Notes under the pieces: model-generated
Told to the model about the DNA's origin: nothing
The model's input: only the letters and a program-made list of their open reading frames with translations
Databases searched by the model: none
From: an uncultured Flavobacteriaceae bacterium
GTDB lineage: Bacteria > Bacteroidota > Bacteroidia > Flavobacteriales > Flavobacteriaceae
Reading direction: 5' to 3'
Length of the DNA: 64,000 nucleotides
NCBI GenBank assembly: GCA_943842625.1
Contig: CALTCK010000004.1
Coordinates: 41,441-105,440 of the forward strand
Shown: in pieces, positions 27,764 to 43,893 of the stretch
Position numbering within the stretch: position 1 is the stretch's first letter
How the letters are laid out: every line of letters starts with the position of its first letter
Made by a program: the position numbers and the translations under genes

Positions 27764-28160
27764 GGGGCCGACTGGTTTTGACAGCGGGTCTAATGGTAAG
27801 GTAAGCATGTCGAGCGCTGGGATATAGCTCGTAAATATCATATTTCACACTTTTAAACGGCGAGAATAACTACGCCCTAGCTGCATAATCCGAATTATAG
27901 TAGGATAATGCCTCGGCCCGCAAGGCGGGCAAGCAGGAAGTCTCTCGAGCGCCTTGGTTTACGGCAATCGATATAGAGGCTTCGTAAAAGTAAACCTAGC
28001 AAGTATAGTGCTTTGATGTATTTGCGAAACTCTAATTAAAGATAAGCCACGCGTTGGTCGTTTTCAACCGGCAATTGGTCGAAAATTTAATTGAAAACTA
28101 AACATGAAGAAAGCCCTATTATTGCTTGTTTGGACGGGAGTTCGAATCTCCCCGGCTCCA
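27764..28160 (+). ncRNA. ssrA: transfer-messenger RNA (tmRNA)
   Basis: The 5' end GGGGCCGACTGGTTTTGACA and the 3' end TTCGAATCTCCCCGGCTCCA pair to make the acceptor stem (GGGGCCG with CGGCTCC, discriminator A) and T-arm of a one-piece tmRNA. CCA is not encoded. The internal tag frame reads GENNYALAA then TAA (27,859-27,888), the Bacteroidota-type tag. It rescues stalled ribosomes with SmpB. A TATCTTTG box at 27,687-27,694 may be its promoter. Its 3' end is the left limit of the repeat-bounded accessory region. Confidence 0.97.
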
Positions 28161-28166
28161 CTTTTT

Positions 28167-28207
28167 ATTCCTAAGAATAATGTTTTGTTCTTGGGAATAT
28201 TTTTTTC
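28167..28207 (+). terminator. tmRNA terminator palindrome
   Basis: Arms ATTCCTAAGAA (28,167-28,177) and TTCTTGGGAAT (28,188-28,198) pair with one G-T wobble and are followed by a T run. The same palindrome type recurs at the 3' end of repeats A-D and F. Confidence 0.8.
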
Positions 28208-28275
28208 ATAAAAGAGTAAAGTTTTTAAATAAAAGAAATGACTGTCTTCAACTATTGCTCTAAGTTTTTTCTTCA

Positions 28276-29250
28276 TTACTTTACTTTATTAATTAACTCT
28301 ACATATTCAGGATTAAATTTTTTATTTACTTCAAAATAAAATCTTTTGATTTCATCCATTTTTTTCCATTCGCTAACTTGTGCATTCATTTCCTTTGCTA
28401 AATGAATTAAATTAGGGTGATCTTTTTTTCGAATATACTTTTCATCATTTTTTAATAGCTTTAAAATTTCTTTTTCAAAAACTTTAAAATTTCTTTTAAA
28501 ATCATCATTTAAGGCAACCTCAAAAAAACTTCTTGGTATTGAATCACTTTTATATCGATTTAGACTTAGTCCTATTGGCACTAAATTTTCAATAATATTT
28601 CCAGGTCCCCCTGCACTTTTAGGAACGAAATGATCAATATCAATAAGATGCCCGATTGAATAATTTTGATTAAAAAAAGAGTATATTTTTAATCTTAAAT
28701 CACCTGGTATTTTAGGATCCAATTTTTTGACTTGTTTTAAACTGTAATCTGGATTTTCATTTAAGTATTTAACATCTTCATCTTTTAACTCAAAAAATAT
28801 TCTTGCTAAACCACTTTTAACTGAAGCATCATATTTTCTTAATGTACCATTATATGGGATAGTCCTTTTGAGCAACCTCTGTTTTATAAAATATTGATGA
28901 CATTTCAACACATAATTAGAATCAGAAGAGAGCTTATCTTTGAAAAATCTTATTTTCCCTAACCAATAAGAATCATCTTTAAATTGTTTAGAGTAATCCA
29001 ATACTTCTTCTATTGTTTTAAATTCTTTTACCTTAGAACTTTTTATAACTTCCCCTTTTGCATAGATACCACCACTTGTTTCCGCCACATAAATGATATC
29101 TTTATTTACTAATTTTGAAGAAGGAGGGTCCATTTTATCTTTTCTAATTGTAATTTCAAAATACCCTTTTTTATTAGAATTATTTTTTTTTAAATCCCTG
29201 AAAGAATTACTTCTTTTAATAAGGTATGATTTTGGCTTTTCTAATTGCAT
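28276..29250 (-). CDS. HNH endonuclease with possible EVE/PUA-like N-terminal domain
   Basis: A 324-residue nuclease. The HNH site is IDHFVPKSAGGPGN...ENLVPIGLSLNRYKSD, with His207, Asn222 and Asn231 as the canonical residues. The N-terminal 100 residues (DIIYVAETSGGIYAKGEVI, SYWLGKIRFFKD) resemble PUA/EVE-like base-reading domains, as in EVE-HNH modification-dependent restriction enzymes; that part is inference. It sits just beyond the tmRNA 3' end on the opposite strand, a position where restriction genes on islands are often found. It shares a strand with the three following small genes. Confidence 0.8.
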   Translation of the reverse strand: MQLEKPKSYLIKRSNSFRDLKKNNSNKKGYFEITIRKDKMDPPSSKLVNKDIIYVAETSGGIYAKGEVIKSSKVKEFKTIEEVLDYSKQFKDDSYWLGKIRFFKDKLSSDSNYVLKCHQYFIKQRLLKRTIPYNGTLRKYDASVKSGLARIFFELKDEDVKYLNENPDYSLKQVKKLDPKIPGDLRLKIYSFFNQNYSIGHLIDIDHFVPKSAGGPGNIIENLVPIGLSLNRYKSDSIPRSFFEVALNDDFKRNFKVFEKEILKLLKNDEKYIRKKDHPNLIHLAKEMNAQVSEWKKMDEIKRFYFEVNKKFNPEYVELINKVK

Positions 29251-29298
29251 TTTGAATAAAATTAATTTATTTCGAATTTTATATATAATATTTACTAA

Positions 29299-29574
29299 TC
29301 AGAGCCATGCATTATAATCACTTGATTCCATTCCCGGTTTTAACTTATTTTCCCTCGCAAACTCGACATCCTCTTTCATTTGTTTTTTGAATTCGTCAAA
29401 TTCAATAGGGGATTCCAATTCCCATAATTCCGAAGCACAATACAACGCATAAACGTTCTCCCATTCTATTTCATTCCATTCCGATACCTTTTTATTATGG
29501 TAAGCCCAATCTTTATCATTCCATTGTGATGGGTCTGCTGATTTTTTCATGTTATTAAATTTATTTTTTTTCAT
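29299..29574 (-). CDS. small hypothetical protein, Trp-rich
   Basis: A 91-residue acidic protein (DPSQWNDKDWAYHNKK, EWNEIEWENVYALYCASELW) with about seven Trp, no signal peptide and no membrane helix. I do not recognise the family. An alternative start is Met9. It lies 49 bp before the kinase-like gene's coding end and on the same strand as the nuclease, so it could be co-transcribed. Confidence 0.55.
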   Translation of the reverse strand: MKKNKFNNMKKSADPSQWNDKDWAYHNKKVSEWNEIEWENVYALYCASELWELESPIEFDEFKKQMKEDVEFARENKLKPGMESSDYNAWL

Positions 29575-29622
29575 GATAATTTTTTATATTTCGTTATAAG
29601 TTTATTGTACAACATCTGATTT

Positions 29623-30183
29623 TTATGAATAGGGTGAAGGTTGATGAAATTTATCTAACAACTCTAAACAAGTAAGGTTTTCCATTTCAGGAGAATCTGC
29701 AAGTTGATTAAATGCTTTTTCAGATATTAATTTTAAAAACCCTTTCTTATCTGTTAATGGACTTATTTTCTTAATTTTTCTATCCTTATTTGCTATTCCC
29801 TTTGAATGAGATTTAATAATTTTTTTATTATTTATTATTTGAATAAAACATGGCTCCCAATCTATTAAAACAATCTTATCACCTTTAATCATTAAATTTC
29901 TATAGTGTATATCGCCATGAAACATATTTTTAGAGTGTATGTAATCTAGATACTTACCCAACAAATTTAGGTCTGAAATGCAGGTTGGTCTGGTAGATTT
30001 TATATACTCAAATTTTAGTGTAAGATTTTCTGAATCAATATTAAATCCAAATCCAATATCGATATACTTTTTAATTTGACTAAGTCTAAATTCAATTTTT
30101 TGAATTGAACAATCTAATGTAGTTAAAGGATAAATTTTAACAAATGTATTGCCGTCTTTAAACTTTTTAATAGCGGTATTCAA
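29623..30183 (-). CDS. mini protein-kinase-like (APH/RIO-type fold) protein
   Basis: A 186-residue protein with a kinase-type catalytic core: VKIYP (Lys16, possible ATP-binding Lys), HGDIHYRNLMI (residues 89-98, catalytic Asp91 and metal Asn96) and VLIDWEPCF (metal Asp108). The N-lobe is very short and no glycine-rich loop is seen, so it may be a minimal or inactive kinase. A basic stretch (ANKDRKIKKI) follows. It starts with TTG. The closest known groups are LPS kinases, aminoglycoside phosphotransferases and toxin-antitoxin kinases; its role is unknown. Confidence 0.65.
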   Translation of the reverse strand: MNTAIKKFKDGNTFVKIYPLTTLDCSIQKIEFRLSQIKKYIDIGFGFNIDSENLTLKFEYIKSTRPTCISDLNLLGKYLDYIHSKNMFHGDIHYRNLMIKGDKIVLIDWEPCFIQIINNKKIIKSHSKGIANKDRKIKKISPLTDKKGFLKLISEKAFNQLADSPEMENLTCLELLDKFHQPSPYS

Positions 30184-30203
30184 ATTGATATTTATAAATT
30201 AAT

Positions 30204-30788
30204 CTACCAATAGTCTTCCTCAGCAGATTCATAATAATCTGAATTTAAAACAACTCCCTCACGATTGAGTTCAACGGAAAGTGAATAATAGCCCTCATCT
30301 CCATTAATATCAACTTGTCCACATAAAAAACCAACACAACCCTCTTCTTTGGATTCAGAATTAATTAAGTCTATTTTTTCATTCAGTTCTGCAGGAAAAG
30401 AATCTTCAAAGCTTAAATTATATGTTGTAAGTTCATCATATATAGCTAAAATATTATACAAGTCCGTATAAAAATCTTCAGGAAACGGTTCTTGTCCGGT
30501 ACCCCATCCAACTTCCTCATTTTCAGAGTTAAATGCAGCTAAAAATCTACAAATAGCTCTGTCATAATTTGGTTTTCCATCATCTAAAGTAGGAAAATTT
30601 GAAGTGTAAATTTCCACACCATCAGAATCAGCAATTAGATGATTATTTACTAAAAATTTATCTTGAAATAATGATATTATACTTTCCCACTTATTTTCAA
30701 ATTCATTATACAACTTGTCAAAATGTTTATTAGACCCCAAGACCAATTCGTTGCAGTCATGAGAAAGAGAAATAGTCAAATTTGCCAT
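30204..30788 (-). CDS. acidic hypothetical protein
   Basis: A 194-residue, strongly acidic cytoplasmic protein (EDSFPAELNEKIDLINSES, NSDYYESAEEDYW at the C-terminus). No signal, membrane segment or known motif is visible. It is the most upstream gene of the minus-strand module and its stop is 20 bp from the kinase-like gene start, so the two are probably co-transcribed. Repeat A lies 54 bp beyond its start codon. Small acidic proteins of this kind recur in the accessory region. Confidence 0.6.
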   Translation of the reverse strand: MANLTISLSHDCNELVLGSNKHFDKLYNEFENKWESIISLFQDKFLVNNHLIADSDGVEIYTSNFPTLDDGKPNYDRAICRFLAAFNSENEEVGWGTGQEPFPEDFYTDLYNILAIYDELTTYNLSFEDSFPAELNEKIDLINSESKEEGCVGFLCGQVDINGDEGYYSLSVELNREGVVLNSDYYESAEEDYW

Positions 30789-30842
30789 ATTATTAAATTT
30801 TAGATTAAATATATATAAAAAAATTAGACTTTCAAAATAGCT

Positions 30843-30925
30843 AAATCCTCCCCAAAAAAGTTCGACTTCACTCCTCTTGGCTCCACGGCATTATTCCCTA
30901 AAATAAAATTTATTTAGGGAATAAT
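30843..30925 (+). repeat. att-like repeat copy A
   Basis: Full copy of the roughly 80-bp family: 5' part AAATCCTCCCCAAAAAAG, core TTCGACTTCACTCC, then TTGGCTCCA ending at 30,885 (compare tmRNA end CGGCTCCA), then a palindrome with arms near ATTATTCCCTAAATAAA (30,890-30,925). It lies between the minus-strand nuclease module and the VWA/MoxR module, and it is most like copy D. Confidence 0.8.
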
Positions 30926-30980
30926 TTTTAAACATTATTTTAAGAAAATTATACTACGGTTTTAGTAAATTTACCGTGCT

Positions 30981-32105
30981 ATGAAATTAAACCTGTCCAC
31001 TGTTGGGATTACATTTACACAATACGTACCCAAACACCAAACACCGTTTGAACGTCTCTTTGAGGTGTTTAAAGAGTTGATTACCCACACGTCTGGCGAT
31101 TTTGACGAAGCGATTGATTGGTTGCGCGAATTAGATATTGAATATGGCTTAACCACCGCAGCATATACGATAGATGATTTTATCGAAGACCTGTTAAAAC
31201 GAGCTTATATACAACCAAAAGGCGATGGTACTGGCGATGGAAAAGGGATGTCCCTCACTGCCAAAACAGAAAAGCTCTTGCGTGAACACGCGCTAAAGCA
31301 AATTTTTGGTAAACTTAAAAAAGCAGGCAACGGCAACCACAAAACCAAAAGTATCGGGCAAGGTGCAGACGAGACTGGCGAATTTAAAGCCTATCAATTT
31401 GGCGATCCACTTGAGAAAATATCCATGACCGAAAGCCTGCGCAATGCACAAATACGCTCTGCAGGAGATGATTTTACATTGCATCAGGACGACCTCGTAG
31501 TGGAGGACAGTTATTACCATACGCAAATGAGTACGGTTTTGATGATTGACATCAGCCATAGTATGATTTTGTATGGCGAAGATCGCATTACCCCGGCTAA
31601 AAAAGTAGCTATGGCACTAGCAGAATTTATCACTACGCGGTACCCAAAAGACACCCTCGACATTTTGGTGTTTGGAAACGATGCCTGGCCAATTGCACTT
31701 AAAGATATTCCATACTTACAAGTAGGGCCTTATCATACCAATACTGTTGCGGGACTTACCTTGGCAATGGATTTGTTACGACGAAGAAAAAACAGTAACA
31801 AACAAATATTTATGATTACGGATGGGAAGCCAAGTTGTTTAAAAAACTCCGATGGCACCTATTACAAAAATAGCAATGGACTAGACGATCATATTGTAGA
31901 TAAGTGTTATAATATGGCACGACAGGCAAGAAAACTTCATATCCCCATCACCACATTTATGATTGCACAGGATCCCTATTTAAAAGAGTTTATTCGGAAT
32001 TTTACGGAAGCCAATAAAGGAAAGGCATTCTTTACAGGATTAAAAGGCTTAGGCGAAATGATTTTTGAAGACTATGAACAGAACAGAAAAAAACGATTGA
32101 AATAA
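30981..32105 (+). CDS. VWA domain protein, partner of MoxR-type ATPase
   Basis: A 374-residue protein with a C-terminal von Willebrand factor A domain. The MIDAS motif DISHSM is at residues 190-195 and FMITDGKPS supplies the distal Asp. The N-terminal half is helical (FDEAIDWLRELDIEYG, then a Gly-rich linker GDGTGDGKGM). Such proteins bind the AAA+ ATPase encoded directly downstream, in the manner of Mg-chelatase or MoxR/CoxE systems. The pair forms one cassette between repeats A and B. Codons are richer in C than in neighbouring genes. Confidence 0.8.
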   Translation: MKLNLSTVGITFTQYVPKHQTPFERLFEVFKELITHTSGDFDEAIDWLRELDIEYGLTTAAYTIDDFIEDLLKRAYIQPKGDGTGDGKGMSLTAKTEKLLREHALKQIFGKLKKAGNGNHKTKSIGQGADETGEFKAYQFGDPLEKISMTESLRNAQIRSAGDDFTLHQDDLVVEDSYYHTQMSTVLMIDISHSMILYGEDRITPAKKVAMALAEFITTRYPKDTLDILVFGNDAWPIALKDIPYLQVGPYHTNTVAGLTLAMDLLRRRKNSNKQIFMITDGKPSCLKNSDGTYYKNSNGLDDHIVDKCYNMARQARKLHIPITTFMIAQDPYLKEFIRNFTEANKGKAFFTGLKGLGEMIFEDYEQNRKKRLK

Positions 32106-33563
32106 ATGAAAAAAAGTACCACACTAGGCGCACTAAAAAAAACGGATTACAAACCGCTTTCTATTCAACAAGAACTGGCACAAAACCTTAGAGCTCGTAT
32201 GCAAAAAGGCCAGCCAACATTTGAAGGTCTTTTGGGCTATGAAAATACGGTTATTCCAGATGTAGAACGGGCATTACTTTCGGGACACAGCATCAACTTA
32301 CTCGGCTTGAGAGGTCAGGCCAAAACAAGATTGGCACGACAGCTTACGCAATTATTAGACGAGTGGGTGCCTGTGGTCGAAGGCTCTGAAATAAACGATG
32401 ACCCCCTAGCTCCCATCAGTAATTTTGCCAAGGCACTTATTGCAGAAAAAGGAGAGGATACCCCCATCACTTGGCTGCATCGAAACGATCGCTTCTTTGA
32501 AAAATTAGCCACACCAGATGTTAGTGTAGCCGATTTGATTGGCGACGTTGATCCCATTAAAGCAGCTAACCTTAAGTTGTCCTATGCCAATGAGAAGGTA
32601 ATTCATTTTGGCATGATTCCAAGAGCACACAGGTGTATATTTGTCTTGAATGAATTGCCTGATTTACAAGCACGAATACAGGTAGCGCTTTTTTCCATTT
32701 TACAAGAAAAGGAAATTCAAATCCGTGGATTCAAACTCCGATTACCCATTGAAACCCAGTTTGTCTTTACGGCCAACCCTGAAGATTACACCAACCGTGG
32801 AAGTATTGTGACCCCATTAAAGGACCGTATTGGTTCTCAAATTTTGACGCACTATCCACACAACTTGGAAACGGCTAAGGCCATAACTCGTCAAGAGACT
32901 CACACCGACGCGGCAGTACAACAGGCTATTCACGTTCCTGAATTGGCACGTGATATTTTGGAACAGATAGGTTTTGAAGCTAGAAAAAGTGAATACGTTG
33001 ATTCCAAAAGTGGCGTAAGTGCACGGATGAGCATTACTGCTTTTGAAAACCTTATGAGTGCTGCTGAACGCCGTATGCTAATGTCTGGCGAGCAAAATAC
33101 CTGCATTAGAATGTCTGACTTTCTGGGAACTATCCCTGCCATCAATGGAAAAGTAGAATTGGTCTATGAAGGCGAACAAGAAGGGGCAGAACAGGTTTCT
33201 TTTCACTTAATCAATCAAGCTGTAAAAACCTTGTTTCCAGCTTATTTTCCAGAAATAAAAAAACTTGAAAAACAAGATGAAGAAGGTCCTTATGACCACT
33301 TATTGGGATGGTTTTACGGCGATAACGAATTGTTTTTGGAAGACAACCTGCCTGACAATGTATATCACGATACCTTAATGAATGTTCCTAACTTGAAAAT
33401 ACTAATAGCAACTCATCAAGCAGATTGTCCCAGGGAAGATCTATTTTTTATGATGGAATTTTTATTGTGGGGACTAGAGGCAAACAAAAAATTAAATAAA
33501 TATAGAACTATGGAAGGCTTTCAGTTTAAAGACGGCCTTGGAAATTTATTGGCAGGAATTTAA
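32106..33563 (+). CDS. MoxR/ChlI-type AAA+ ATPase
   Basis: A 485-residue AAA+ ATPase. Walker A is GLRGQAKT (residues 67-74), Walker B is IFVLNELPDL, and QARIQVALFSILQEKEIQI plus FVFTANPEDYTNRGSI are typical of Mg-chelatase I/MoxR. The C-terminal 150 residues are helical. It starts directly after the VWA stop, so they act together, probably as a chaperone-like metal-insertion or remodelling machine. The pair is compact, with repeat B 10 bp after the stop. Confidence 0.83.
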   Translation: MKKSTTLGALKKTDYKPLSIQQELAQNLRARMQKGQPTFEGLLGYENTVIPDVERALLSGHSINLLGLRGQAKTRLARQLTQLLDEWVPVVEGSEINDDPLAPISNFAKALIAEKGEDTPITWLHRNDRFFEKLATPDVSVADLIGDVDPIKAANLKLSYANEKVIHFGMIPRAHRCIFVLNELPDLQARIQVALFSILQEKEIQIRGFKLRLPIETQFVFTANPEDYTNRGSIVTPLKDRIGSQILTHYPHNLETAKAITRQETHTDAAVQQAIHVPELARDILEQIGFEARKSEYVDSKSGVSARMSITAFENLMSAAERRMLMSGEQNTCIRMSDFLGTIPAINGKVELVYEGEQEGAEQVSFHLINQAVKTLFPAYFPEIKKLEKQDEEGPYDHLLGWFYGDNELFLEDNLPDNVYHDTLMNVPNLKILIATHQADCPREDLFFMMEFLLWGLEANKKLNKYRTMEGFQFKDGLGNLLAGI

Positions 33564-33572
33564 ACACCAGTT

Positions 33573-33654
33573 AAATCTTCTGTAAATAATTCGAATTTAC
33601 TCTTCTCTTCTCTACTTTTTACTCACAAGAATATATTTTTATTTTTGGGAATAT
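33573..33654 (+). repeat. att-like repeat copy B
   Basis: Diverged copy: AAATCTTCTGTAAATAA, core TTCGAATTTACTC, then TCTCTACTTTTTACTCAC, which parallels tmRNA CTCCACTTTTTATTCC, and an imperfect palindrome ending GGGAATAT as at ssrA. It begins 10 bp after the MoxR stop. Confidence 0.7.
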
Positions 33655-33693
33655 TTGTTGGATTAAAATAGTATTTTTATAAATAATTAAAAT

Positions 33694-34269
33694 ATGAATA
33701 ATTTAATAATTATAGGGCATCCCGACCAAAACTCTTTTTGTTACAATGGCATCTTTAAAACCATTAAAACAAGTATTGAGTCCAAAGGACAGGAACTAAA
33801 AATTATTGACCTTTACAGTGATAGTTTTACAAGACCTCGTACCAAATTGATCGAAGCTTATAAAGACCTCATAAGTTGGTCAGAAAATATTTTTATCATA
33901 TCCCCCGTATGGTGGTTCAGATTAACACCACGTGCTGAAATATTTTTCGACGAGGTATTTACTCCTGGATTTGCTTATAAATTTGTAAACATAACCAAGC
34001 TTTATGCTTACCCCAAACCATTTTTAAAAAATAAAAAAGTACGGACCTATATCACACACGGTGCGCCTGCACTTCCAGTTCGCACCCTTTATTTAAACTC
34101 TGTAAAATTACGTCTAGTAATGGGTGTTTACACCTTTGTATTTGGCTGGAGACTGTCTTTGTTTCTAAAAACAAACCAGTTTTGGTCCGTTCCCTTTGTT
34201 AGTGATAAAACCAGAGCCAAATACTTAAAGCGCGTGGAACGTAACACCTACAAAGACATTCGAGCCTAA
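33694..34269 (+). CDS. NAD(P)H oxidoreductase, flavodoxin-like fold (NQO/KefF type)
   Basis: A 191-residue flavoprotein with the typical start NNLIIIGHPDQNSFCYNGI (FMN phosphate site) and the SPVWWFRLTPRAEIFFDEVF segment of the NQO/MdaB/KefF family, followed by GFAYKF and ITHGAPA. It probably reduces quinones or similar electrophiles with NAD(P)H. It stands alone between repeats B and C; its TAA stop at 34,267 lies inside the start of repeat C. Confidence 0.85.
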   Translation: MNNLIIIGHPDQNSFCYNGIFKTIKTSIESKGQELKIIDLYSDSFTRPRTKLIEAYKDLISWSENIFIISPVWWFRLTPRAEIFFDEVFTPGFAYKFVNITKLYAYPKPFLKNKKVRTYITHGAPALPVRTLYLNSVKLRLVMGVYTFVFGWRLSLFLKTNQFWSVPFVSDKTRAKYLKRVERNTYKDIRA

Positions 34270-34339
34270 AATAGTTCGAATTCACTCCTATGGGCTCCAA
34301 AATTATTCTTGGAAATAATATTTTATTCTTAAAGATAAT
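34264..34339 (+). repeat. att-like repeat copy C (overlaps a stop codon)
   Basis: Core TTCGAATTCACTCC then TATGGGCTCCA (ending 34,299) and an imperfect palindrome (34,302-34,339). The left part overlaps the oxidoreductase stop codon, CCTAAAATAG, and shows no further 5' part, so this copy is short on its left side. Confidence 0.72.
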
Positions 34340-34454
34340 TTCAAATGTTTTATAAATATTTCTCAAATAAACAATGTAATGAGATATAAAAAATATTTAC
34401 TACATTTATGTGATGTATTAAATTTGATGTGAAGACTTACATTAATAATTGTTT

Positions 34455-35183
34455 ATGATGTTTCTAGAAAAATTAAGAGCTGTAATAGAAGATACCTCAA
34501 CATTAAAGGGAAAAATATTTGACTATTTTATTCAGGCATTAATTTTGTTGTCACTCTTAGCGTTTACAATTGAGACTTTCCCAGACAACTCTAAAGTTAC
34601 TATTGAGCTACTCAATACTTTTGAATTCTTGTGTGTTATAATATTTTCGATAGAATATTTATTAAGAGTTATTGTTTCAAAAAAACCCTTAAAATACATA
34701 TTTAGCTTTTATGGGGTAATTGATTTTCTTGCTATTTTTCCGTTTTATCTAAAAAGCATATATGATTTAAGAGCACTCAGAGCATTTAGAATCTTTAGAA
34801 TATTTAGAGCTTTAAAATTAATTCGATATAATAGAGCTTTAAATAGATTTAATATTGCTTCAAAAATAGTTAAGGAGGAGCTTATTCTATTTTTAATCCT
34901 AACTAGTATATTTGTGTTTATAGCATCTGCTGGAATTTACTTTTTTGAAAATGAGGCTCAACCTGAAAATTTTAGTTCTGTGATTCATAGTGGCTGGTGG
35001 GCAATTGTTACTTTAACTACAGTTGGTTACGGAGATGTTTATCCAATTACTGTAGGAGGTAAAGTATTTACCACCTTTATTGTTCTAATTGGCGTTGGTA
35101 TTGTCACTATTCCTGCGGGTCTAGTTGCAAGTGCTTTGTCAAAAGCAAGAGAAATTGAAGCTAAAGAAATTAAAAATAAATAA
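34455..35183 (+). CDS. voltage-gated potassium channel (6TM, Kv-like)
   Basis: A 6-TM channel of about 242 residues. The S4 voltage sensor is rich in regularly spaced Arg (LRALRAFRIFRIFRALKLIR, about residues 106-125), and the pore has the K+ filter TVGYGD near residue 190 with the pore helix GWWAIVTLT. A charged cytoplasmic tail follows (AREIEAKEIKNK). The track start is TTG; ATG at 34,455 is better. It is followed 20 bp later by two genes on the same strand, all three inside one repeat-bounded module. Confidence 0.88.
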   Translation: MMFLEKLRAVIEDTSTLKGKIFDYFIQALILLSLLAFTIETFPDNSKVTIELLNTFEFLCVIIFSIEYLLRVIVSKKPLKYIFSFYGVIDFLAIFPFYLKSIYDLRALRAFRIFRIFRALKLIRYNRALNRFNIASKIVKEELILFLILTSIFVFIASAGIYFFENEAQPENFSSVIHSGWWAIVTLTTVGYGDVYPITVGGKVFTTFIVLIGVGIVTIPAGLVASALSKAREIEAKEIKNK

Positions 35184-35203
35184 TAATTTAAAAACCAAAT
35201 ATT

Positions 35204-35482
35204 ATGAATTTAAAAAATGAAAAAACAGAAATACCCTGTCCAGGAGGAGGGAGAGCTATTAAAACTACTTACGGGGATTTAGCGAGAAAAAGTTCTTTAA
35301 AATCAAGTAAAGGTCATGAATATAAGTTTAAATCAAGTGATCAAAGCAAACTTAAAAGAGCTATGGATAAATTAGAAAGATTACAAAAAGATTTTGAAAG
35401 GGATATGGAAAGAGCACAAAAAGAATTTGGCGAAAGTTTAAATGATGTAATTGGTAATGCTGATTTAGTGCTTAAAAAATAA
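35204..35482 (+). CDS. small coiled-coil protein of unknown function
   Basis: A 92-residue protein with a Gly-rich N-terminal segment (IPCPGGGRAIKTTYGDL) and a charged coiled coil (KLKRAMDKLERLQKDFERDM). No known family comes to mind. It lies 20 bp after the channel stop and 2 bp before the KAP ATPase, so it belongs to the same operon and may bridge the two proteins. Confidence 0.7.
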   Translation: MNLKNEKTEIPCPGGGRAIKTTYGDLARKSSLKSSKGHEYKFKSSDQSKLKRAMDKLERLQKDFERDMERAQKEFGESLNDVIGNADLVLKK

Positions 35483-35484
35483 TT

Positions 35485-37476
35485 ATGGCATCAATCACCG
35501 ACAAACCCATAGCAAGACTTGAACAAGACTCGTTAAATATTCAAAAATATGCTAATTCTCTTTCTAAATTTATAAGAAATAGTGATACTCCAATAACTAT
35601 AGGGCTTCAAGGTGAGTGGGGAACGGGAAAAACTTCCTTAATGTCTTTACTTCTTGAGGACTTTAATGCGGATGGAAAGGAAAGAGAAATTGCTACTTCC
35701 TGGGTTAATACCTGGGAGTATAGTTTATTTAAAGGAGCAAGCGAGACAACTCCAGCAGTACTAAGTGGAATGCTGGAAAAATTAAGAGATGAAAATAGCG
35801 ATATCTGGACCATTAAAGATGTAGCGGCAGACAAGGTTAAAAAAGCTACAAAATTTTTAAGTGGCCTTGCCAACCAAGTTATAGCAAACCAGACGGGGAT
35901 TAATGTCAAAGAAGCTGCAAGAGATTCCTCCACAGAAAAAAATGTAGCTCATATTGTAGAAATAAAAAACCTCATTGCCTCCATCATCAATGAATTGATT
36001 GAACATAGTAAAAACAAAATTCAGAAAGTAGTTTTTTTTGTTGATGATTTAGACAGAATTCCTCCTACAGATGCAGTTGAAGTTTTAGAGTCACTTAAAA
36101 ATATTTTTGATATTCCTAAATGTGTTTTTATACTTGCCATAGATTACGATGTAGTTGTCAAAGGACTCGAAAGTAAATTTGGTAAAAAAACAAAAGAAAA
36201 TGAAAGAGAATTTAGATCATTTTTTGATAAAATCATACAAGTTCCCTTTACTATGCCAGTTGGCGCTTATGACATTACTACTTTTTTAAAAACAAAATTA
36301 AATGATTTAGGTGTTGAGCCAGTATTTATTGAAGCTAGTATTGGTCAAATAACGAAAATAGTAAGATATACAGTGGGCAATAACCCAAGAAGTCTTAAAA
36401 GGTACTTAAATACTTTTAGTCTCATCAATCAAATTATGGATGATGATGATGAGAATGAAAAAGATGACAATAATATTATTTTACTTTTTGCTGTATTAGG
36501 AATCCAAGTTTCTTATCCCCAAATTTTTAGACTATTAACTCAAAATCCAGATTATTTGAGCTGGAATGAAAAATTTGGAAACAAAATAGGATTAGACTTA
36601 AGTAAAATAAAAGAGAATATTGAAAATGTAGGGGAATCCGAATTAACCGATGAAACCTGGGAACAAATTATTTGGGGATTTTGCCAAGAAGATCCGTATT
36701 TGAAAGTAAAGTGTTTTAATATTTTAGAGTTGTTTAATTTTTTAAGAGAGCTGTCTTGTAAAAATGATTTAAATGAAGAATGGAATGAGAAATTAAAAGA
36801 GGATGTTACTAAATACAATAGCTTAAAAGAAAAATTATATGAAAGGCTAAGCTCGGTTTTAGAATTTGCAGCCATTACAAATGTTGACGATGATATTGAA
36901 GTAAAATCCATAACAACTAAAGGTAATGTAGTCTATTTTGATGGGTTTGATGGGTGGATTCAAGAAATGAGAAATGGGCAAGAAGAAAATAAACAGCTTA
37001 GCCTTAAAAAACGCCCAGCAATTGAAATAAGTAATGATTTAGAAGAGTTTTTAAAGTATTGGGTTGATTACTTCGAGGCTGAGGGTTTTGATTTAATATT
37101 TACGCCAACTGCTGGTTGCTCAATCAAATATAAAAAAAAGACAATAATAAGGATAGATCCACCAAAATCTAAAATTATTTATATCAGTATCCTCAGGTCT
37201 TTTAAAAGAGAATACAAAAGAGCTTTAATAGATGGCCTTGGATCTCAAAACATTCGTAGGTATGATCCTAATATAAAATCCTATATATTACCTTGGGGTA
37301 AAGAATTTTTTCAAGTATATGGTGAAATTAATGAAATTACATCAAAAGAAAATGACATAAAATATTTATTCAAAGAAGCTATTGAAACTATTAATGATGA
37401 CAAATCACTAAAAGTTAATAAAGATAATCATCATATATTAGAAGATATATTCAATGGAACTTATACTATTAATTAA
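35485..37476 (+). CDS. KAP family P-loop NTPase
   Basis: A 663-residue KAP NTPase. Walker A is GEWGTGKTS (residues 43-51) and Walker B with the typical KAP ending is VVFFVDDLDRIPP (182-194). It has FFDKIIQVPFTMP and NNPRSLKRYLNTFSLINQ, also typical of the family. No strong transmembrane segment is visible, unlike many KAP proteins. The C-terminal 170 residues are unrecognised and could bind substrate. KAP NTPases occur in bacterial membrane-linked and defence contexts. It forms an operon with the channel and the coiled-coil protein; repeat D follows. Confidence 0.82.
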   Translation: MASITDKPIARLEQDSLNIQKYANSLSKFIRNSDTPITIGLQGEWGTGKTSLMSLLLEDFNADGKEREIATSWVNTWEYSLFKGASETTPAVLSGMLEKLRDENSDIWTIKDVAADKVKKATKFLSGLANQVIANQTGINVKEAARDSSTEKNVAHIVEIKNLIASIINELIEHSKNKIQKVVFFVDDLDRIPPTDAVEVLESLKNIFDIPKCVFILAIDYDVVVKGLESKFGKKTKENEREFRSFFDKIIQVPFTMPVGAYDITTFLKTKLNDLGVEPVFIEASIGQITKIVRYTVGNNPRSLKRYLNTFSLINQIMDDDDENEKDDNNIILLFAVLGIQVSYPQIFRLLTQNPDYLSWNEKFGNKIGLDLSKIKENIENVGESELTDETWEQIIWGFCQEDPYLKVKCFNILELFNFLRELSCKNDLNEEWNEKLKEDVTKYNSLKEKLYERLSSVLEFAAITNVDDDIEVKSITTKGNVVYFDGFDGWIQEMRNGQEENKQLSLKKRPAIEISNDLEEFLKYWVDYFEAEGFDLIFTPTAGCSIKYKKKTIIRIDPPKSKIIYISILRSFKREYKRALIDGLGSQNIRRYDPNIKSYILPWGKEFFQVYGEINEITSKENDIKYLFKEAIETINDDKSLKVNKDNHHILEDIFNGTYTIN

Positions 37477-37538
37477 ATGAAAAATACTGCACGTAAACAA
37501 CCTTTTATCTTTGAAGATAACTTCTTGTTATAACATCT

Positions 37539-37620
37539 AAATCTTCCCCGAAATAGTGCGACTTCACTCCTATGGGCTCCAAGCATTATTCTCGATAATA
37601 AAATTTATTTTAGGGAATAT
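37539..37620 (+). repeat. att-like repeat copy D
   Basis: Full copy: AAATCTTCCCCGAAATAG, core TGCGACTTCACTCC, TATGGGCTCCA ending at 37,581, then palindrome from 37,585 to 37,620 with an arm near TTTATTTTAGGGAATA. It shares the loop string ATAAAATTTATTT with copy A and starts 62 bp after the KAP stop. Confidence 0.8.
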
Positions 37621-37688
37621 TTTTTACTTTAAAAAATGAAACTATGTTACTTTAATTGATTAATTTCAATAAATTAATTATTATTTAA

Positions 37689-38783
37689 ATGAAAAAAAAT
37701 CTGTTTTTCTTGTTGTTAATACTTTTTTCGTGCTCAAATGATGAAACTCAGACTAGCGAGCCAGTAGTTGATAACTTATATTTTCCAAGCATAGATTCCG
37801 ACCAATGGGAAACTATAAATCCTGAGGAACTAAACTGGGATTCCGTTAGTATCGATAATCTTTATAATTTTCTTCAACTTAACAACACCCGTGCTTTTAT
37901 AGTTTTAAAAGATGGAAAAATTATTTTAGAAAATTATTGGGGTAATAACTTTTCAAATACAGCTCCTTTTGATAGCAACTCTAATTGGTATTGGGCTTCT
38001 GCAGGTAAAACACTCACTGCCTTTTTAGTAGGCATCGCAAAAGACAATGGAATTTTATCCATAGAGGATAGCAGCTCAATATTTCTTGGTAATGGATGGA
38101 CAAGTTTAGAAGAAAGTCAAGAGAGTTTGATAAAAATCAAACACCATTTGACCATGACAACCGGCTTGGATTATCTAGTGGATAACCTAAATTGTACAGA
38201 TCCAAATTGCCTGACCTATAAAAACACCCCTGGGACAACCTGGTTTTATCACAACGCCACATACTCACTCCTAAAAGATGTCATCGAAAACGCATCCGAG
38301 ACAACATACAATGATTTTACCAATCAAAAAGTAAAAATGCAAATTGGAATGGGTGGAAGTTGGATTCAATCTAATTACAGTAATATTTACTGGAGCACGG
38401 CTAGGGACATGGCTAGGTTTGGTCTTTTGATATTAAATGAAGGCGTATGGGATAATCAAGTGGTTTTAAGTGACACAAATTATTTTTCAAACATGGTAAA
38501 TACTTCTCAACAAATGAATGAGTCCTATGGATACTTGTGGTGGCTCAATGGCAAAGATAGTCTGATACCACCTGGCATAACCTTCCCAATACAGACTTCT
38601 TTGGCTTCCAACGCACCAGAAGATTTAATTGCTGGGATGGGTACAAATGGTCAATATCTTGATGTGATTCCAAGTCAAAATCTAGTAATCATTCGCATGG
38701 GTGAAGCTCCCGATAGTGATGATTTACTCCCTATCAATTTCCATAACGAAATGTGGAGTTATTTAAACGATATTTTATTTTAA
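37689..38783 (+). CDS. serine beta-lactamase family lipoprotein
   Basis: A 364-residue lipoprotein with lipobox near Cys15 (LILFSCSND). The class C/PBP-like catalytic motifs are SAGK (Ser104, Lys107) and YHN (Tyr187). The last motif lies in the C-terminal half, ending in LIAGMGTNGQYLDVIP. Members are esterases, peptidases or beta-lactamases; no substrate is implied. It sits alone in its own repeat-bounded module, with repeat E 7 bp after the stop. Confidence 0.83.
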   Translation: MKKNLFFLLLILFSCSNDETQTSEPVVDNLYFPSIDSDQWETINPEELNWDSVSIDNLYNFLQLNNTRAFIVLKDGKIILENYWGNNFSNTAPFDSNSNWYWASAGKTLTAFLVGIAKDNGILSIEDSSSIFLGNGWTSLEESQESLIKIKHHLTMTTGLDYLVDNLNCTDPNCLTYKNTPGTTWFYHNATYSLLKDVIENASETTYNDFTNQKVKMQIGMGGSWIQSNYSNIYWSTARDMARFGLLILNEGVWDNQVVLSDTNYFSNMVNTSQQMNESYGYLWWLNGKDSLIPPGITFPIQTSLASNAPEDLIAGMGTNGQYLDVIPSQNLVIIRMGEAPDSDDLLPINFHNEMWSYLNDILF

Positions 38784-38790
38784 TAATTCC

Positions 38791-38824
38791 AAATCCTCCC
38801 AAAAATAGTTCGACTTCACTCCCC
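38791..38824 (+). repeat. att-like repeat copy E (3' truncated)
   Basis: AAATCCTCCCAAAAATAG then TTCGACTTCACTCC, after which the family sequence stops: GGCTCCA and the palindrome are absent. Adjacent DNA (38,825-38,941) is AT-rich and shows only a weak AAAGGA/TCCTTT hairpin. Confidence 0.65.
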
Positions 38825-38941
38825 TTACTTATTTTTTTAAATTAATTCTCTTTTTTAAAGGAGTTTCTGGAGTGTCATCCTTTAAAATAAGACCTATTTT
38901 ATGGTTTAAATTCATCACGATTGCGTTTTTTTAAAATTTTA

Positions 38942-41900
38942 TTATTGAATTTGTTCTAGTAATACATCCACTGCTTTTTGTAATTGAGCGTCTTCACCTC
39001 TTGCTACCCAACCTGGTGTATTCTTTATCAAATAGTCAGGTACTGCGGGCGCATCGTTTTCCATATTCAAGCCAGATTTTTTGACATACCAAGCACGAAA
39101 TGGCATGCGGACATAGCCCTTTAATAATCGATAACCTCCTGTAGAGATAACTGCACCAAAAGTAGGCTGACCTACTAATTTACCTAATCCTAAATTTTTA
39201 TAGGCATGTGAAAATATTTCTGCATTAGAGTAACTGTTCTCGTTACACAAAGCCACAGTAGGTTTGGTATTGACTGATAAAATTGCTCGTTCGTTAAAAG
39301 GGTAATTTCCTTGAAACTTTTTATTCTCTTTCTTTAAGTCATTCGCTGCTCCTCTTGGGATGGTATACGCATGTTGATCTACATTCAAAACAGCCATTAA
39401 ACGGTCCGTTGTCCAACCTCCACCATTGTAACGAACATCAATTACAATTCCTTTTTTACCATATCCACTGGCTTTCAACTCGCGTTCAAAACGTTCAAAA
39501 CTTGGAGCATTCATTCCTTGAATATGAATATATCCTAGCTGTCCTTTTGAATATTTTTTTACCAATTCGCTTCTAGATGCTACCCATGCTTCATATTGTA
39601 AAGTTCTTAAGGAACTCGAAGTTCTAATAACAACATCTTTTCCATCACTTTTGGTTAATAACACCTCTTCACCCTTAGAATTTTTTAACAAACTATAAAA
39701 ATTAGTGTTTTTACCTATCGGTTTATTATTAACCGCAGTGATAATATCGCCAACTTTTAAGTTTACTTTTGATGTATTTGCTACTGAATTTTTAAGTACA
39801 TACTCCACTTGAACTCCTTTTGAAATATTCTTCACCTCAACTCCTAACAAACCAATATTATCACTGTTTTTACGTTCAGAAGTTTCTGCTCTATACCCCA
39901 TATGACTCGCATTTAATTGACCTAATAACAAATTATATATAAAACTATAATCTTGTTCTGTGCTCGCTTTTAATACTAATGGTTGGTATTTTTTTATCAA
40001 AGATTCCCAATTGTAGCCATGAAAATTAGGGTCATAGAACCCCATTGTTAAAACACGAGTACCTTCTTGGTAAATCTGTTGATTCATGGCAGTAAAATCT
40101 TCTTTATATTTTGCTACATGAGCTAAAGAGGTAATTTTATCGCCCTCCGGGTTCAATTCTTTTAATTTACCGCCTGAAGTAAAATAAAATTTATCATCAA
40201 TAGCTGCAACTCTTCCTACTTTTGAAGTTCCTTTTATGGCTTTGGGGCTAGTACCGTCTAATTTAACTTTAAAAAAACTTCGGTTATTTGTTGATGGATC
40301 TGTTGCAGAATAATACACATAGTTGCTGTCGGGACCAAACATACCTCCATACTCATCGTCTGGTAATCTAGTTATTCTAGTAAGTCTATCAAAAATTCTT
40401 TCTTTATTGATCGTAACCTTGATCTCCTTCTCTTTCTTATCCTTATCCTTACCCTTGTCAGCTTCTATTTCTGCATAATAGTCTCCATTTTCTCTATCTG
40501 TTTTCGATCGCTCCCAATCCTCTTTTTTTAGCCATACCATCCAAACATCATAATCTATTCCACCTCTGTTTCCACTCCTATTAGAAGAAAATGCTAATTT
40601 TTTACCATCTGGACTCCAAACGGGAGATCTGTCGCTTCTCGGATGCATCGATACGTTAAACTTATCGTTTGGATTAACTACGGATTGAATAAAAATTTCA
40701 CTATCAAAGTCCAAGTCCTCCTGAGAATAAGCAATATACTTGCTGTCTGGACTCCAACTTACATCTTCTGCTTCTGCCCAGCCTGACGAATAAGCTTTGC
40801 TATTGGATATAGCTCCATCCTTTACATCGGCTAACATTAAGCTTCCTCTACCGACTCTATAAGCCAGTTTTTTGTGGTCTGGCGAGACTAAAACATTGTA
40901 AACATCTTCACTACTCTTGGTGAGTTTCGAGATTGAAATCTTTAAACTCCTGTCCAATCCAACCAGGGTATCTTTAGAAACAGCTTTGTATATTTCATTA
41001 TGTCCGTCTCTATCGGAGACAAATAACAACTCTGTATCACTAATCCACTGTGGATTCCTATCTCTATAAGTATGGTTACTTACATTATTGGAGTTTTTTC
41101 TATCCTTATTATTTTGCTTGACAAAAATTTCTCCATTAATTTCAAGAGCCATTAATTTTCCGTTAGGTGAAACATCAAAATCTGAGATATCTGAGGTGGT
41201 AGAAACTTCTTTTTCAGTTTCAAATTTGTAATCTGATTCTATTTTTAAGTTGATCTTCTTAGCTTGTCCATTTTTTAGTTGATATAAATCAAAAAGCGTT
41301 GAGTAGACAATAATTCCTTGATTACTTACAGAAAAAGAAACAACACCATTTTTATTTTGGTTCGTTAATTTTTTGGAAGCTCCCTTTACGGAACCATCCG
41401 TATTTATAGATTGCTGATAAATATTGTAACGACCACTTTTAGCTCCTATGTAATATAAATTACTCGCTGTATCCCACAAAGGTGAATGATCGTTCTTTTC
41501 TGAGTTAGTTACTTGAAAATAAGCCCCTGTTTTAATATTATAAATCCATACATCTCGTTGGGCTGAACCTGAATAATCTTCTCTAGAAATTCTACATGCT
41601 CCTTTTACAAAGGCCACCAAATTTCCGTCAGGAGAAACAGTTGCCATACTACCTAAAGCGGTTATAAATCTTTGCGGAGTACCACCATTGGCATTGACTT
41701 GATAAATTTGCCCATCCCATTCAGGACCTTTTAAAACTCGAGTTGTTGAAAATGTAATATGGTTTGAAGATGTCCAATCGTAGGGAGTATCTCCTGTTGG
41801 ATAATAGGTTAATTGTTTAGGTATTCCTCCATTTTTTTTAATCGTAAAAATATTATTGTTTCCTTTTCTGTTTGAAGAAAAGGCGAGTTGATCTCCGGAA

Positions 41901-42112
41901 GTATTCCACACAGGATTACTCTCATACCCCTCGTGGATGGTTATACGTTTTGTTTGTTGAGTGTTGAAGTTGTAAATCCAAATATCTCCTTGATAAGAAA
42001 AAGCCATTTCTTGGGCATTTGGACTAATTCTAGGCATACGAATCAGAGAATTTTGTGCTGAAAGCAAGCCAGTTATCATCACAAAAATTACGATATACAA
42101 TCTTTTAATCAT
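38942..42112 (-). CDS. tricorn-like protease (S41 family, TolB/PD40 repeats)
   Basis: A 1,056-residue exported protease with a signal peptide (YIVIFVMITGLLSAQ). The N-terminal 600 residues are WD40/PD40-type beta-propeller repeats (SPNAQEMAFSYQGDIW, WSPDGKKLAFSSNRSG, WSPDSKYIAYSQED). A PDZ-like segment with LLGVEVKN...VGDIITAVNNKPIG precedes the S41 core; the nucleophile is probably Ser962 in NENSYSNAEIF. Tricorn proteins degrade peptides in the periplasm. It stands alone on the minus strand between repeats E and F, so this module mixes both strands. Confidence 0.88.
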   Translation of the reverse strand: MIKRLYIVIFVMITGLLSAQNSLIRMPRISPNAQEMAFSYQGDIWIYNFNTQQTKRITIHEGYESNPVWNTSGDQLAFSSNRKGNNNIFTIKKNGGIPKQLTYYPTGDTPYDWTSSNHITFSTTRVLKGPEWDGQIYQVNANGGTPQRFITALGSMATVSPDGNLVAFVKGACRISREDYSGSAQRDVWIYNIKTGAYFQVTNSEKNDHSPLWDTASNLYYIGAKSGRYNIYQQSINTDGSVKGASKKLTNQNKNGVVSFSVSNQGIIVYSTLFDLYQLKNGQAKKINLKIESDYKFETEKEVSTTSDISDFDVSPNGKLMALEINGEIFVKQNNKDRKNSNNVSNHTYRDRNPQWISDTELLFVSDRDGHNEIYKAVSKDTLVGLDRSLKISISKLTKSSEDVYNVLVSPDHKKLAYRVGRGSLMLADVKDGAISNSKAYSSGWAEAEDVSWSPDSKYIAYSQEDLDFDSEIFIQSVVNPNDKFNVSMHPRSDRSPVWSPDGKKLAFSSNRSGNRGGIDYDVWMVWLKKEDWERSKTDRENGDYYAEIEADKGKDKDKKEKEIKVTINKERIFDRLTRITRLPDDEYGGMFGPDSNYVYYSATDPSTNNRSFFKVKLDGTSPKAIKGTSKVGRVAAIDDKFYFTSGGKLKELNPEGDKITSLAHVAKYKEDFTAMNQQIYQEGTRVLTMGFYDPNFHGYNWESLIKKYQPLVLKASTEQDYSFIYNLLLGQLNASHMGYRAETSERKNSDNIGLLGVEVKNISKGVQVEYVLKNSVANTSKVNLKVGDIITAVNNKPIGKNTNFYSLLKNSKGEEVLLTKSDGKDVVIRTSSSLRTLQYEAWVASRSELVKKYSKGQLGYIHIQGMNAPSFERFERELKASGYGKKGIVIDVRYNGGGWTTDRLMAVLNVDQHAYTIPRGAANDLKKENKKFQGNYPFNERAILSVNTKPTVALCNENSYSNAEIFSHAYKNLGLGKLVGQPTFGAVISTGGYRLLKGYVRMPFRAWYVKKSGLNMENDAPAVPDYLIKNTPGWVARGEDAQLQKAVDVLLEQIQ

Positions 42113-42216
42113 GAGTTTTAATTATTTAGTGTTAATTAGGTAAGCTAATTTAAAAAAATAGCTGATCAGTATAAAAAATTTAGTAAAAATATTAGCTATC
42201 TGGTGATATTATTTCT

Positions 42217-42375
42217 TCAAATTTTACTAAAGTCATCTCCATCTTTTTCTAACTCGATAAGCTTTCCATCTTTTATTAAATAATATTTTGTGTATTCTTT
42301 AGGACAATCATATTGTAGCCCACTGCTGATGAAATATCTAACTGTTCTCCATTATAGTTTATTTTATCTTCAATA
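42217..42375 (-). pseudogene. decayed remnant of a small acidic protein gene
   Basis: Read on the minus strand, two frames give coherent sequence: EDKINYNGEQLDISSAVGYN and, one base shifted, YDCPKEYTKYYLIKDGKLIE...DGDDFSKI-stop. The end resembles the C-terminus of the 155-residue protein at 48.3 kb (KYYKFYRVEDGKMIKVEE). No start or upstream half is present. This appears to be a broken paralogue rather than an intact gene. Confidence 0.45.
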
Positions 42376-42385
42376 AGGCATTATT

Positions 42386-42474
42386 TTAAAAAAACAACAA
42401 AAAAGTATCAAAAAAGACTAAAAATCGACTAAAAATCGACTAAAACACTTAAAAAAGACTAAAAAGTATCGAAA
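42386..42474. repeat. phased A-tract array with short direct repeats
   Basis: About eight A-runs of 4-6 bases recur every 10-12 bases, separated by units such as GACT, TCGACT and GTATC; GACTAAAAATC occurs in tandem, and the unit GTATC(A/G)AAAA appears at both ends. Helically phased A-tracts are known to bend DNA. No gene covers it. Confidence 0.55.
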
Positions 42475-42524
42475 ATTATGAAAAATCAAATATTTACAAA
42501 TACACTTTTACAATGTTATGTGAG

Positions 42525-42578
42525 ATGAAAAAGAAAATAGTTTTAAATGCTAAACCAGTAAAAGGGGTTAAAGCTTAA
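42525..42578 (+). CDS. possible 17-residue peptide
   Basis: ATG at 42,525 opens MKKKIVLNAKPVKGVKA-stop. It is basic and short, with no recognised family. It lies 57 bp before the CDGSH gene start. It could be a chance ORF; I list it because the sequence is clean and close to an expressed small gene. Confidence 0.2.
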   Translation: MKKKIVLNAKPVKGVKA

Positions 42579-42635
42579 TCTATATTCATTCTAAAGAGTT
42601 TTAATAATATATTTATAATCTAAACAATAATTATT

Positions 42636-42713
42636 ATGTCAGATAAACCTAAATGCGGATGTGGAAACACTCAAAACCTTGATGGATTTTGTGATGGTTC
42701 TCACAATAAATAA
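42636..42713 (+). CDS. mini CDGSH iron-sulfur protein
   Basis: A 25-residue ORF encoding KCGCGNTQNLDGFCDGSH. The CxC...C...H ligand set (three Cys and one His) is complete and matches the CDGSH [2Fe-2S] motif, with one extra residue before the third Cys, as in other bacterial variants. Full-length CDGSH proteins are larger, so this is only the cluster-binding core. It probably dimerises to hold the cluster. It is too short for the ORF track. A terminator follows 32 bp later. Confidence 0.75.
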   Translation: MSDKPKCGCGNTQNLDGFCDGSHNK

Positions 42714-42744
42714 GAAAAATTCTTATACTATAAACAAAAAAATA

Positions 42745-42775
42745 AAGCCACTCTTTTAATTTAGGGTGGTTTTTT
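42745..42775 (+). terminator. rho-independent terminator after CDGSH gene
   Basis: Stem CCACTC/GGGTGG (42,748-42,753 and 42,764-42,769, one T-G pair) with a 10-base loop followed by six T. Confidence 0.65.
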
Positions 42776-42847
42776 ATGTAGAAAATACTTCAGAGGAGAA
42801 GCTATAATACTTTAATTGATTAATTTTAGTAAATTATTATTCAACAA

Positions 42848-43213
42848 ATGGAACTAAATATTTTCGGAAATCCTTTGATTCCTTGCTGTACAAATCCTGC
42901 TACTGGTTATTTTAGAGATGGTTTTTGTAGAACAATTTCTGAAGATACTGGAACACATACTGTTTGCGCCATTGTTACACAAGAATTCTTAAACTATTCT
43001 GCCTCAAGAGGAAATGATTTAATGACTCCTATTCCACGGTGGAATTTTCCAGGACTACAAGCTGGTTCTTCTTGGTGTTTGTGTATTTCTCGCTGGTTAG
43101 AAGCAGAAAAAGCGGGCAAAGCGCCTCCTATTGTTTTGAAAGCGACTCATCAAAAAACCTTGCAATACACTTCATTGGAATTGTTAGAAAAATATGCAGT
43201 CATAACTGAATAG
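42848..43213 (+). CDS. DUF2237 family protein
   Basis: A 121-residue protein. FGNPLIPCCTNPATGYFRDG, TGTHTVCAIVTQEFL and SWCLCISRWLEAEKAG with several conserved Cys match the DUF2237 family, whose role is unknown. Cys clustering suggests a metal or redox function, but that is inference. Its context is the CDGSH gene upstream and an NTF2-like lipoprotein downstream, all on the plus strand. Confidence 0.75.
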   Translation: MELNIFGNPLIPCCTNPATGYFRDGFCRTISEDTGTHTVCAIVTQEFLNYSASRGNDLMTPIPRWNFPGLQAGSSWCLCISRWLEAEKAGKAPPIVLKATHQKTLQYTSLELLEKYAVITE

Positions 43214-43328
43214 AGTTATTGTAAAGTGAAATTTAATTTTCATACTATCCATGTATTGTACTAATTTTATTTTTTTTACTAAAAAATTAAATTAATTTCG
43301 TAGAACAACTATTTTAAAAATAAAAAAA

Positions 43329-43838
43329 ATGAAAAAATTACTTAGTATTTTATTGGTATCTATTTTTATGTCATGTTCTCAAGGAGGACATCCGGACTTT
43401 GCAAAAAATACAGCCACTGCAAAAAAAATGTTAGAACTTCAGGGATCTGAAGCAGATTTTCAAGCACAACTTGACCTAATTCATCAAGATGTTAAATGGC
43501 AACCTGTATTTTTTGGAGCTACCGAAATTGGAAAAGAAGAATTTGGTCAGTATTTAAAAGCATGGCAAGATGAAATGGAAGATGTGGTTTACACTGCAGA
43601 CAACTGGTTACCTGGAGTATTGGCAGAGACTGGAATGGCTGACGGGAGTGTTAGATCTTACGGAACTTGGTCTGGAACTCATACAAAGACAGGTAAAAAA
43701 TGGGAAGTAAAAGCATACCATACCTGGGATTTTAAAGATGGACAAATTATAACTGGAGGTGATTATTTTGATGCTACAGGTCTTGTTAACTTTCTTGAAG
43801 AGGAAGAAACCCAAGAAGAGGTAGAGATGACTAAATAA
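43329..43838 (+). CDS. NTF2/SnoaL-like lipoprotein
   Basis: A 169-residue lipoprotein (MKKLLSILLVSIFMSC, Cys16) with a cone-fold NTF2-like body: DFQAQLDLIHQDVKWQ, YGTWSGTHTKTGKKWEV and YHTWDFKDGQIITGGDYFD are typical. Members bind or isomerise small hydrophobic ligands, but many have no known activity. The C-terminus is a Glu-rich tail. It is followed by a strong terminator. Confidence 0.7.
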   Translation: MKKLLSILLVSIFMSCSQGGHPDFAKNTATAKKMLELQGSEADFQAQLDLIHQDVKWQPVFFGATEIGKEEFGQYLKAWQDEMEDVVYTADNWLPGVLAETGMADGSVRSYGTWSGTHTKTGKKWEVKAYHTWDFKDGQIITGGDYFDATGLVNFLEEEETQEEVEMTK

Positions 43839-43867
43839 GCTACCAGAGTTTTTAGCTCTTATACATA

Positions 43868-43893
43868 CCCTACCAATTTTGGTAGGGTTTTTT
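43868..43893 (+). terminator. rho-independent terminator
   Basis: Perfect arms CCCTACCAA/TTGGTAGGG followed by TTTTTT, 29 bp beyond the NTF2-like lipoprotein stop. Between here and 44,036 I see only AT-rich DNA. Confidence 0.85.

Follow-up and report, generated by a model that had tools for sequence, protein, structure and literature searches.

Within a 64,000-nt stretch of DNA from an uncultured Flavobacteriaceae bacterium (the window), a voltage-gated K+ channel, a 92-aa protein and a KAP-family NTPase are encoded head to tail, in that order, between two repeats. Do the three genes form one functional unit, and what might such a unit do? We favor, with a probability of about 0.38, a reading in which the locus would be a KAP-NTPase conflict or stress module, with the KAP protein as sensor and the ion channel as effector, in an island anchored at ssrA.

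Gene families and layout of the locus

The three genes occupy positions 34455 to 35183 (channel, 242 aa), 35204 to 35482 (92-aa adaptor-like protein) and 35485 to 37476 (KAP-family P-loop NTPase, 663 aa), all on the + strand, with intergenic gaps of 20 nt and 2 nt, respectively; an ORF check returned the same frames and gaps as a previous sequence-only reading of this DNA. That reading had also described a complete voltage-gated K+ channel with an S4 arginine array and a TVGYGD filter, and Pfam, the sequence itself and PDB matches all confirmed it. The protein matched Pfam Ion_trans (E = 3.5e-38) and Ion_trans_2 (1.9e-16), and phmmer searches against the PDB gave Kv2.1 as the best match (9.2e-27), with KvAP (2.4e-15) and Kv4 also matched. 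Six transmembrane segments by hydropathy, arginine at each third position of the S4 helix (R106, R109, R112, R115 and R118) and the TVGYGD filter place it in the voltage-gated K+ channel family.

The third protein was likewise as previously described, a soluble-looking KAP NTPase: it matched KAP_NTPase of Pfam at 129.8 bits against a cut-off of 20 (1.5e-37), which makes it a KAP P-loop NTPase, it carries Walker A (GEWGTGKTS) and Walker B (VVFFVDDLDR) motifs, and no clear transmembrane segment was seen by hydropathy. Its PADLOC matches were PifA (3.6e-29), PDC-S20 (6.6e-29) and QatA (2.3e-26). The predicted structure (pLDDT 38) was unusable, and a PDB search with the KAP profile returned no structure similar in sequence. 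No relative of the window KAP clade was found in viral contigs; a phage search gave two weak matches, and plasmid matches extended over no more than 65% of the protein, with identities of up to 32%.

For the 92-aa protein, the earlier label of coiled-coil protein can be refined: it has the appearance of a zinc ribbon in decay, with one of four cysteines kept, joined to a coiled coil. We take it to be a ribbon minus three of its four cysteines because a relative from a different family (G366, L049), 37% identical to the 92-aa protein and encoded immediately downstream of a KAP gene from the same clade as the window KAP, retains the full ribbon (CPKGC...CGRC). Closer homologs were found at 92, 85 and 75% identity, and none in viral contigs or in plasmids. 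The 92-aa protein itself matched no family above cut-off in Pfam, PADLOC or NCBIfam. Its AlphaFold model (pLDDT 84) has a small beta part followed by a helix at residues 44-91, and a fold search with this model gave no match under E = 2; PDB matches of the 92-aa profile were dismissed as coiled-coil noise.

The locus had been proposed to be a single operon. Promoter and terminator scans of the locus gave scores not above those of shuffled sequences, and the sole full Bacteroidota-type promoter match lies within the channel gene; thus it is the spacing that argues for co-transcription. The linkage of the channel to the 92-aa gene is the looser one (20 nt here, 85 nt in the second trio, L045, described below). 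The 92-aa and KAP genes form a tight unit whose coupling is conserved, with gaps of 2 nt in the window, 1 nt in L045 and 2 nt in a KAP remnant at L044. From a comparison of the window with L045, in which dS was near saturation, we estimated dN/dS as 0.25 for the channel, 0.08 for the 92-aa gene and 0.12 for the KAP gene. These values, all well below 1, suggest purifying selection on all three genes, with the strongest constraint on the 92-aa gene.

The island setting and recurrence of the trio

The repeats that bound the trio, at positions 34269 to 34355 and 37526 to 37626 (both +), belong to one family, which has further clear copies near 30830, 38778 and 47087 and a weaker copy near 33559; the left one contains an A/T-rich inverted repeat. 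The repeat core, GTTCGACTTCACTCC, matched six times in the window against 0.74 matches expected, and none of 100 shuffles reached six, although the sixth match (54157, - strand, 3 mismatches) is probably due to chance. BLAST with one repeat copy against the genome gave matches confined to this stretch, and the bounding repeats noted earlier are thus real. Their sequence is similar to that of the tmRNA gene (ssrA; 27764 to 28163, +; detected by ARAGORN and as Rfam RF00023 at 1.2e-52) at its 3' end and terminator. Since the repeats look like diverged ssrA 3' ends, the trio module would sit in an ssrA-anchored island, and an island of accumulated modules is our best inference: repeats of this type bound modules, and the modules differ from those of G677, a genome of the same genus. 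Two tyrosine recombinases (329 and 304 aa) are encoded in the bin, which is 84% complete, both outside the window, whose contig ends at 64000.

Over positions 27764 to 47195, hairpin repeats resembling the ssrA 3' end (at about 28147, 30830, 33559, 34269, 37526, 38778 and 47087) separate modules of mostly one gene or one operon, with no integrase, in an integron-like layout anchored at the tmRNA. Relative to window positions 33694 to 38855, G677 (L105) carries a deletion that joins residue 32 of a flavodoxin to residue 306 of a beta-lactamase-like protein and removes the trio; the flavodoxin tail and a repeat are found elsewhere in its island. At the repeat corresponding to window positions 38803 to 38855, G677 has an extra module encoding an ion channel of 552 aa whose long C-terminal part is unassigned (L105:12149-13807), and about 200 kb from its ssrA it has a frameshifted 92-aa gene with 90% DNA identity to the window copy (L115:8448-8722). 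Misassembly of the window locus was considered and discarded, as its flanks are syntenic with G677 at about 97%.

The sequence-only reading had staked its proposal on co-occurrence of the three families in other genomes. Using the 92-aa protein as query against 84,980 species genomes, we found four loci, L044 to L047. The sample holds two trios only, and the loci derive largely from MAGs. In L045, from an uncultured member of the Flavobacteriales, the full trio is present in the same order (56, 85 and 60% identity for the channel, 92-aa and KAP proteins), with gaps of 85 nt and 1 nt. Its context differs from that of the window: aroA and a gene for a DUF481 protein lie next to it, and the KAP gene is followed, at a distance of 0 nt, by a gene of the HNH type. 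This last gene is a homolog (43%, pairwise BLASTP 5e-58) of the first gene of the window island, an HNH-endonuclease-like gene in its first module at 28276 to 29250 (-; HNH_4 E = 0.002, below cut-off). In L044, from an uncultured Ulvibacter, repeats of the window's family enclose a copy of the 92-aa gene together with a KAP remnant of 21 residues, and no window-type channel lies directly upstream. The 92-aa gene occurs without a KAP gene in L046 and L047; the copy in L047, which we took to be the same genome as G677, is frameshifted.

Islands shuffle genes, and the deletion in G677 is what might be expected if the three genes were coincidental neighbors with no functional relation. Yet L045 repeats the order of the trio, all three genes appear to be under purifying selection and the spacing of the 92-aa/KAP pair is conserved, and we regard such coincidence as very improbable.

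The channel is a different matter from the pair. A channel homolog (E <= 1e-30) was found in 274 of 301 genomes of the family, in about 51 of them at 52% identity or more, and the 92-aa gene was not found in those 51 or so. In 18 channel neighborhoods the gene was mostly a single one, often downstream of obgE. The closest kin of the window channel, in G666 and G206 (79-82%), both lack KAP and 92-aa genes. As a tree places the window channel with that of G666 (support 100/98) and the L045 channel on a separate long branch, the channels of the two trios do not form a clade, and the channel would thus have become linked to the pair on two or more occasions or been swapped in one lineage. It is a separable, not an obligate, partner of the 92-aa/KAP pair. 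The notion that a housekeeping channel had been displaced together with its native neighbors was rejected, the genus also encoding a distinct core channel of 282 aa (36-40%).

Possibly, then, the functional unit is the 92-aa/KAP pair, alone or with other island genes, and the channel is an ordinary ion-homeostasis neighbor that arrived by island rearrangement. The mostly standalone kin of the channel, the tree, the L044 arrangement with no such channel directly upstream and L049, in which a KAP gene and the zinc-ribbon relative share a 4.7-kb contig with no channel, would all fit. However, both complete pairs have a channel of the same subfamily directly upstream on the same strand, and related KAP clusters hold a related pore (in G072) and more channels than expected by a rough hand estimate, as described next; we therefore judge this alternative somewhat unlikely.

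Channels and recurrent genes in the wider KAP clade

We searched for KAP relatives across the family, class and order. By tree, the clade contains the KAP proteins of the window, L045, G072, G366, G934, G883 and G942, to which G554 and G451 were added by similarity (50-51%). Channels of three architectures occurred at 5 of 10 close KAP loci: the Kv channels of the window and of L045; in G072, about 9 kb downstream of KAP, a 2TM pore that has a TATGGED filter and is 41% identical to the Kv pore; and 2TM proteins joined to an RCK part of the Castor/Pollux type in L044 (4.4e-19), where KAP is present as a remnant only, or to TrkA_N (1.6e-5) in G451, about 8 kb upstream of KAP on the same strand. 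In four of these channel-bearing loci the channel lies 0-10 kb from KAP. No channel was seen in the other five, of which L049, L176 and L197 are short contigs, and G883 and G942 offer more than 25 kb of context. By a rough hand estimate, which excluded the window, left RCK channels uncounted and used a background density for P0001-type channels only, about 0.11 such channels would be expected in about 184 kb of related loci and 2 were seen (Poisson P of about 0.006).

The presence of three architectures at half of the KAP loci examined argues against chance. As regards the earlier proposal, then, the co-occurrence of the three families stood to the extent of one other genome, with a channel that is not obligate and whose nearest kin lack the pair; and the trio at another locus in that genome, together with the other channel types in related KAP loci, makes it unlikely that the window channel is in place by pure chance.

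Other genes recur around this KAP clade as well. The cluster comprises DUF481, DUF2779, TerB-like, OmpA-type, zinc-ribbon, GIY-YIG, PD-(D/E)XK, DNA-ligase-like and nucleotidase genes, with DUF481 found at 9 and DUF2779/UU173 at 7 of the loci compared, and in G451 it amounts to about 15 genes on one strand. Part of this larger Bacteroidota cluster is found in the window itself, at 47-64 kb. Three genes there (50297 to 53428, +), two of them conserved unknowns and the third DNA-ligase-like (DNA_ligase_A_M 2e-11), are 62, 67 and 57% identical to genes in the KAP cluster of L198, which is from another family; an NT5C-like nucleotidase (56334 to 56801, -; NT5C 2.3e-10) also occurs in L198 and L046 (46 and 58%); and a DUF2779/UU173-type protein (62104 to 63762, -), its 5' end open at the contig end at 64000, is 40-50% identical to proteins of L044, L046, L187, L198 and L049, the L044 relative matching DUF2779 at 3.6e-21. 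The segment from 47222 to 64000, which also encodes a 980-aa membrane AAA ATPase and whose genes are common to other Bacteroidota KAP clusters, is possibly one uncharacterized multi-gene conflict system.

The trio could be a piece split off from a more extensive system of Bacteroidota for envelope or DNA stress (KAP, DUF481 outer-membrane protein, OmpA-like, TerB-like, DUF2779, DNA-ligase-like and nucleotidase), in which channels would serve ion balance and not suicide. The recurrence of DUF481 and DUF2779/UU173, the G451 cluster and the presence of the same families in the window at 50-64 kb would be in keeping with this. But the trios of the window and L045 are compact and stand apart from the larger cluster, and the neighboring nucleases (HNH, PD-(D/E)XK and GIY-YIG) fit conflict better than homeostasis, so that we consider such a system an unlikely explanation.

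Several further arrangements were observed in these searches. Other KAP proteins of the superclade adjoin type I restriction, PD-(D/E)XK and ZorAB-like genes, as judged by reading the sequences. In a second KAP clade (L038, L040, L041 and L042), a different small protein of 99-121 aa, with repeats of the type YxExxDxxGKxI, is encoded 0-7 nt upstream of KAP in defense-type neighborhoods. A recurrent KAP neighbor with the sequence KGVIEVTGKAMNRTALGVVDA... and a C-terminal OmpA domain is encoded at L182:12779-13903, L036:10705-11801 and L184:5345-6454.

Comparison with known systems and a proposed mechanism

The trio fits none of the described systems tested here, as the sequence-only reading had supposed, and we found no paper linking KAP NTPases with a potassium or other ion channel. 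Some KAP proteins, PifA and QatA among them, act in phage exclusion; PifA is the KAP NTPase of the F plasmid and acts in abortive infection against T7. The window KAP aligned with PifA at residues 5-316, a match to positions 7-318 of the 720 in the profile that is confined to the NTPase domain, and similarity does not extend over the whole protein with its C-terminal half. Unlike PifA, the window KAP is linked to a channel gene and a zinc-ribbon/coiled-coil gene. Killing by depolarization has been proposed for both PifA and RexAB (PMC8594841). RexA and RexB of phage lambda are a sensor and an ion channel, RexB being opened by RexA, and for a Rex homolog of P. putida membrane damage was seen with no depolarization (PMC12894663). 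The window trio would work like RexAB in that genes for a cytoplasmic sensor and a membrane ion channel lie side by side, but Pfam assigned none of the three proteins to the RexA or RexB families, and the window channel is of the canonical Kv type.

QatA, a DNA-binding protein that oligomerizes into a heptamer or octamer (PMC13279940), offers a plausible model for the window KAP, which shares the KAP domain with QatABCD. In contrast, the window KAP scored 100.8 bits against the QatA equivalog cut-off of 600, and no QueC-like QatC gene was found among the main ORFs of 28276 to 38780. The models of the PADLOC candidate PDC-S20, which match the KAP domain, are shorter (446-464 aa). The channel has the full 6TM voltage-sensor/pore architecture of bacterial KvAP-type and eukaryotic Kv channels; known Kv members are single genes, whereas the window channel is upstream of the KAP pair.

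In the conflict or stress module that we favor, the trigger would be a phage component, a DNA intermediate or envelope damage. The triggered KAP protein, as sensor and assembly platform and with the zinc-ribbon-derived coiled-coil protein as its putative partner or adaptor, presumably in a complex, would assemble and switch an ion channel in the membrane (here Kv) to another state. The resulting K+ flux would lower the membrane potential and halt growth or infection, and an anti-phage role is one that such a module may have. Opening of an L-type Kv channel alone would hyperpolarize a K+-rich cell, so that depolarization would need special gating or ionic conditions. It is also conceivable, although we hold it doubtful, that KAP-NTPase conflict systems of Bacteroidota use interchangeable K+-type channels (Kv, 2TM Kv-like and 2TM-RCK/Castor-Pollux) as effectors, with the zinc-ribbon-derived coiled-coil adaptor linking KAP with the channel in the smallest, three-gene version.

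For the mode of action of KAP NTPases such as PifA and QatA, the linkage of a KAP gene to that of a canonical K+ channel, in a wider clade with several channel types at its loci, offers an effector, ion flux, that is directly testable. If the favored reading is true, it would place a textbook voltage-gated channel in bacterial immunity or stress response.
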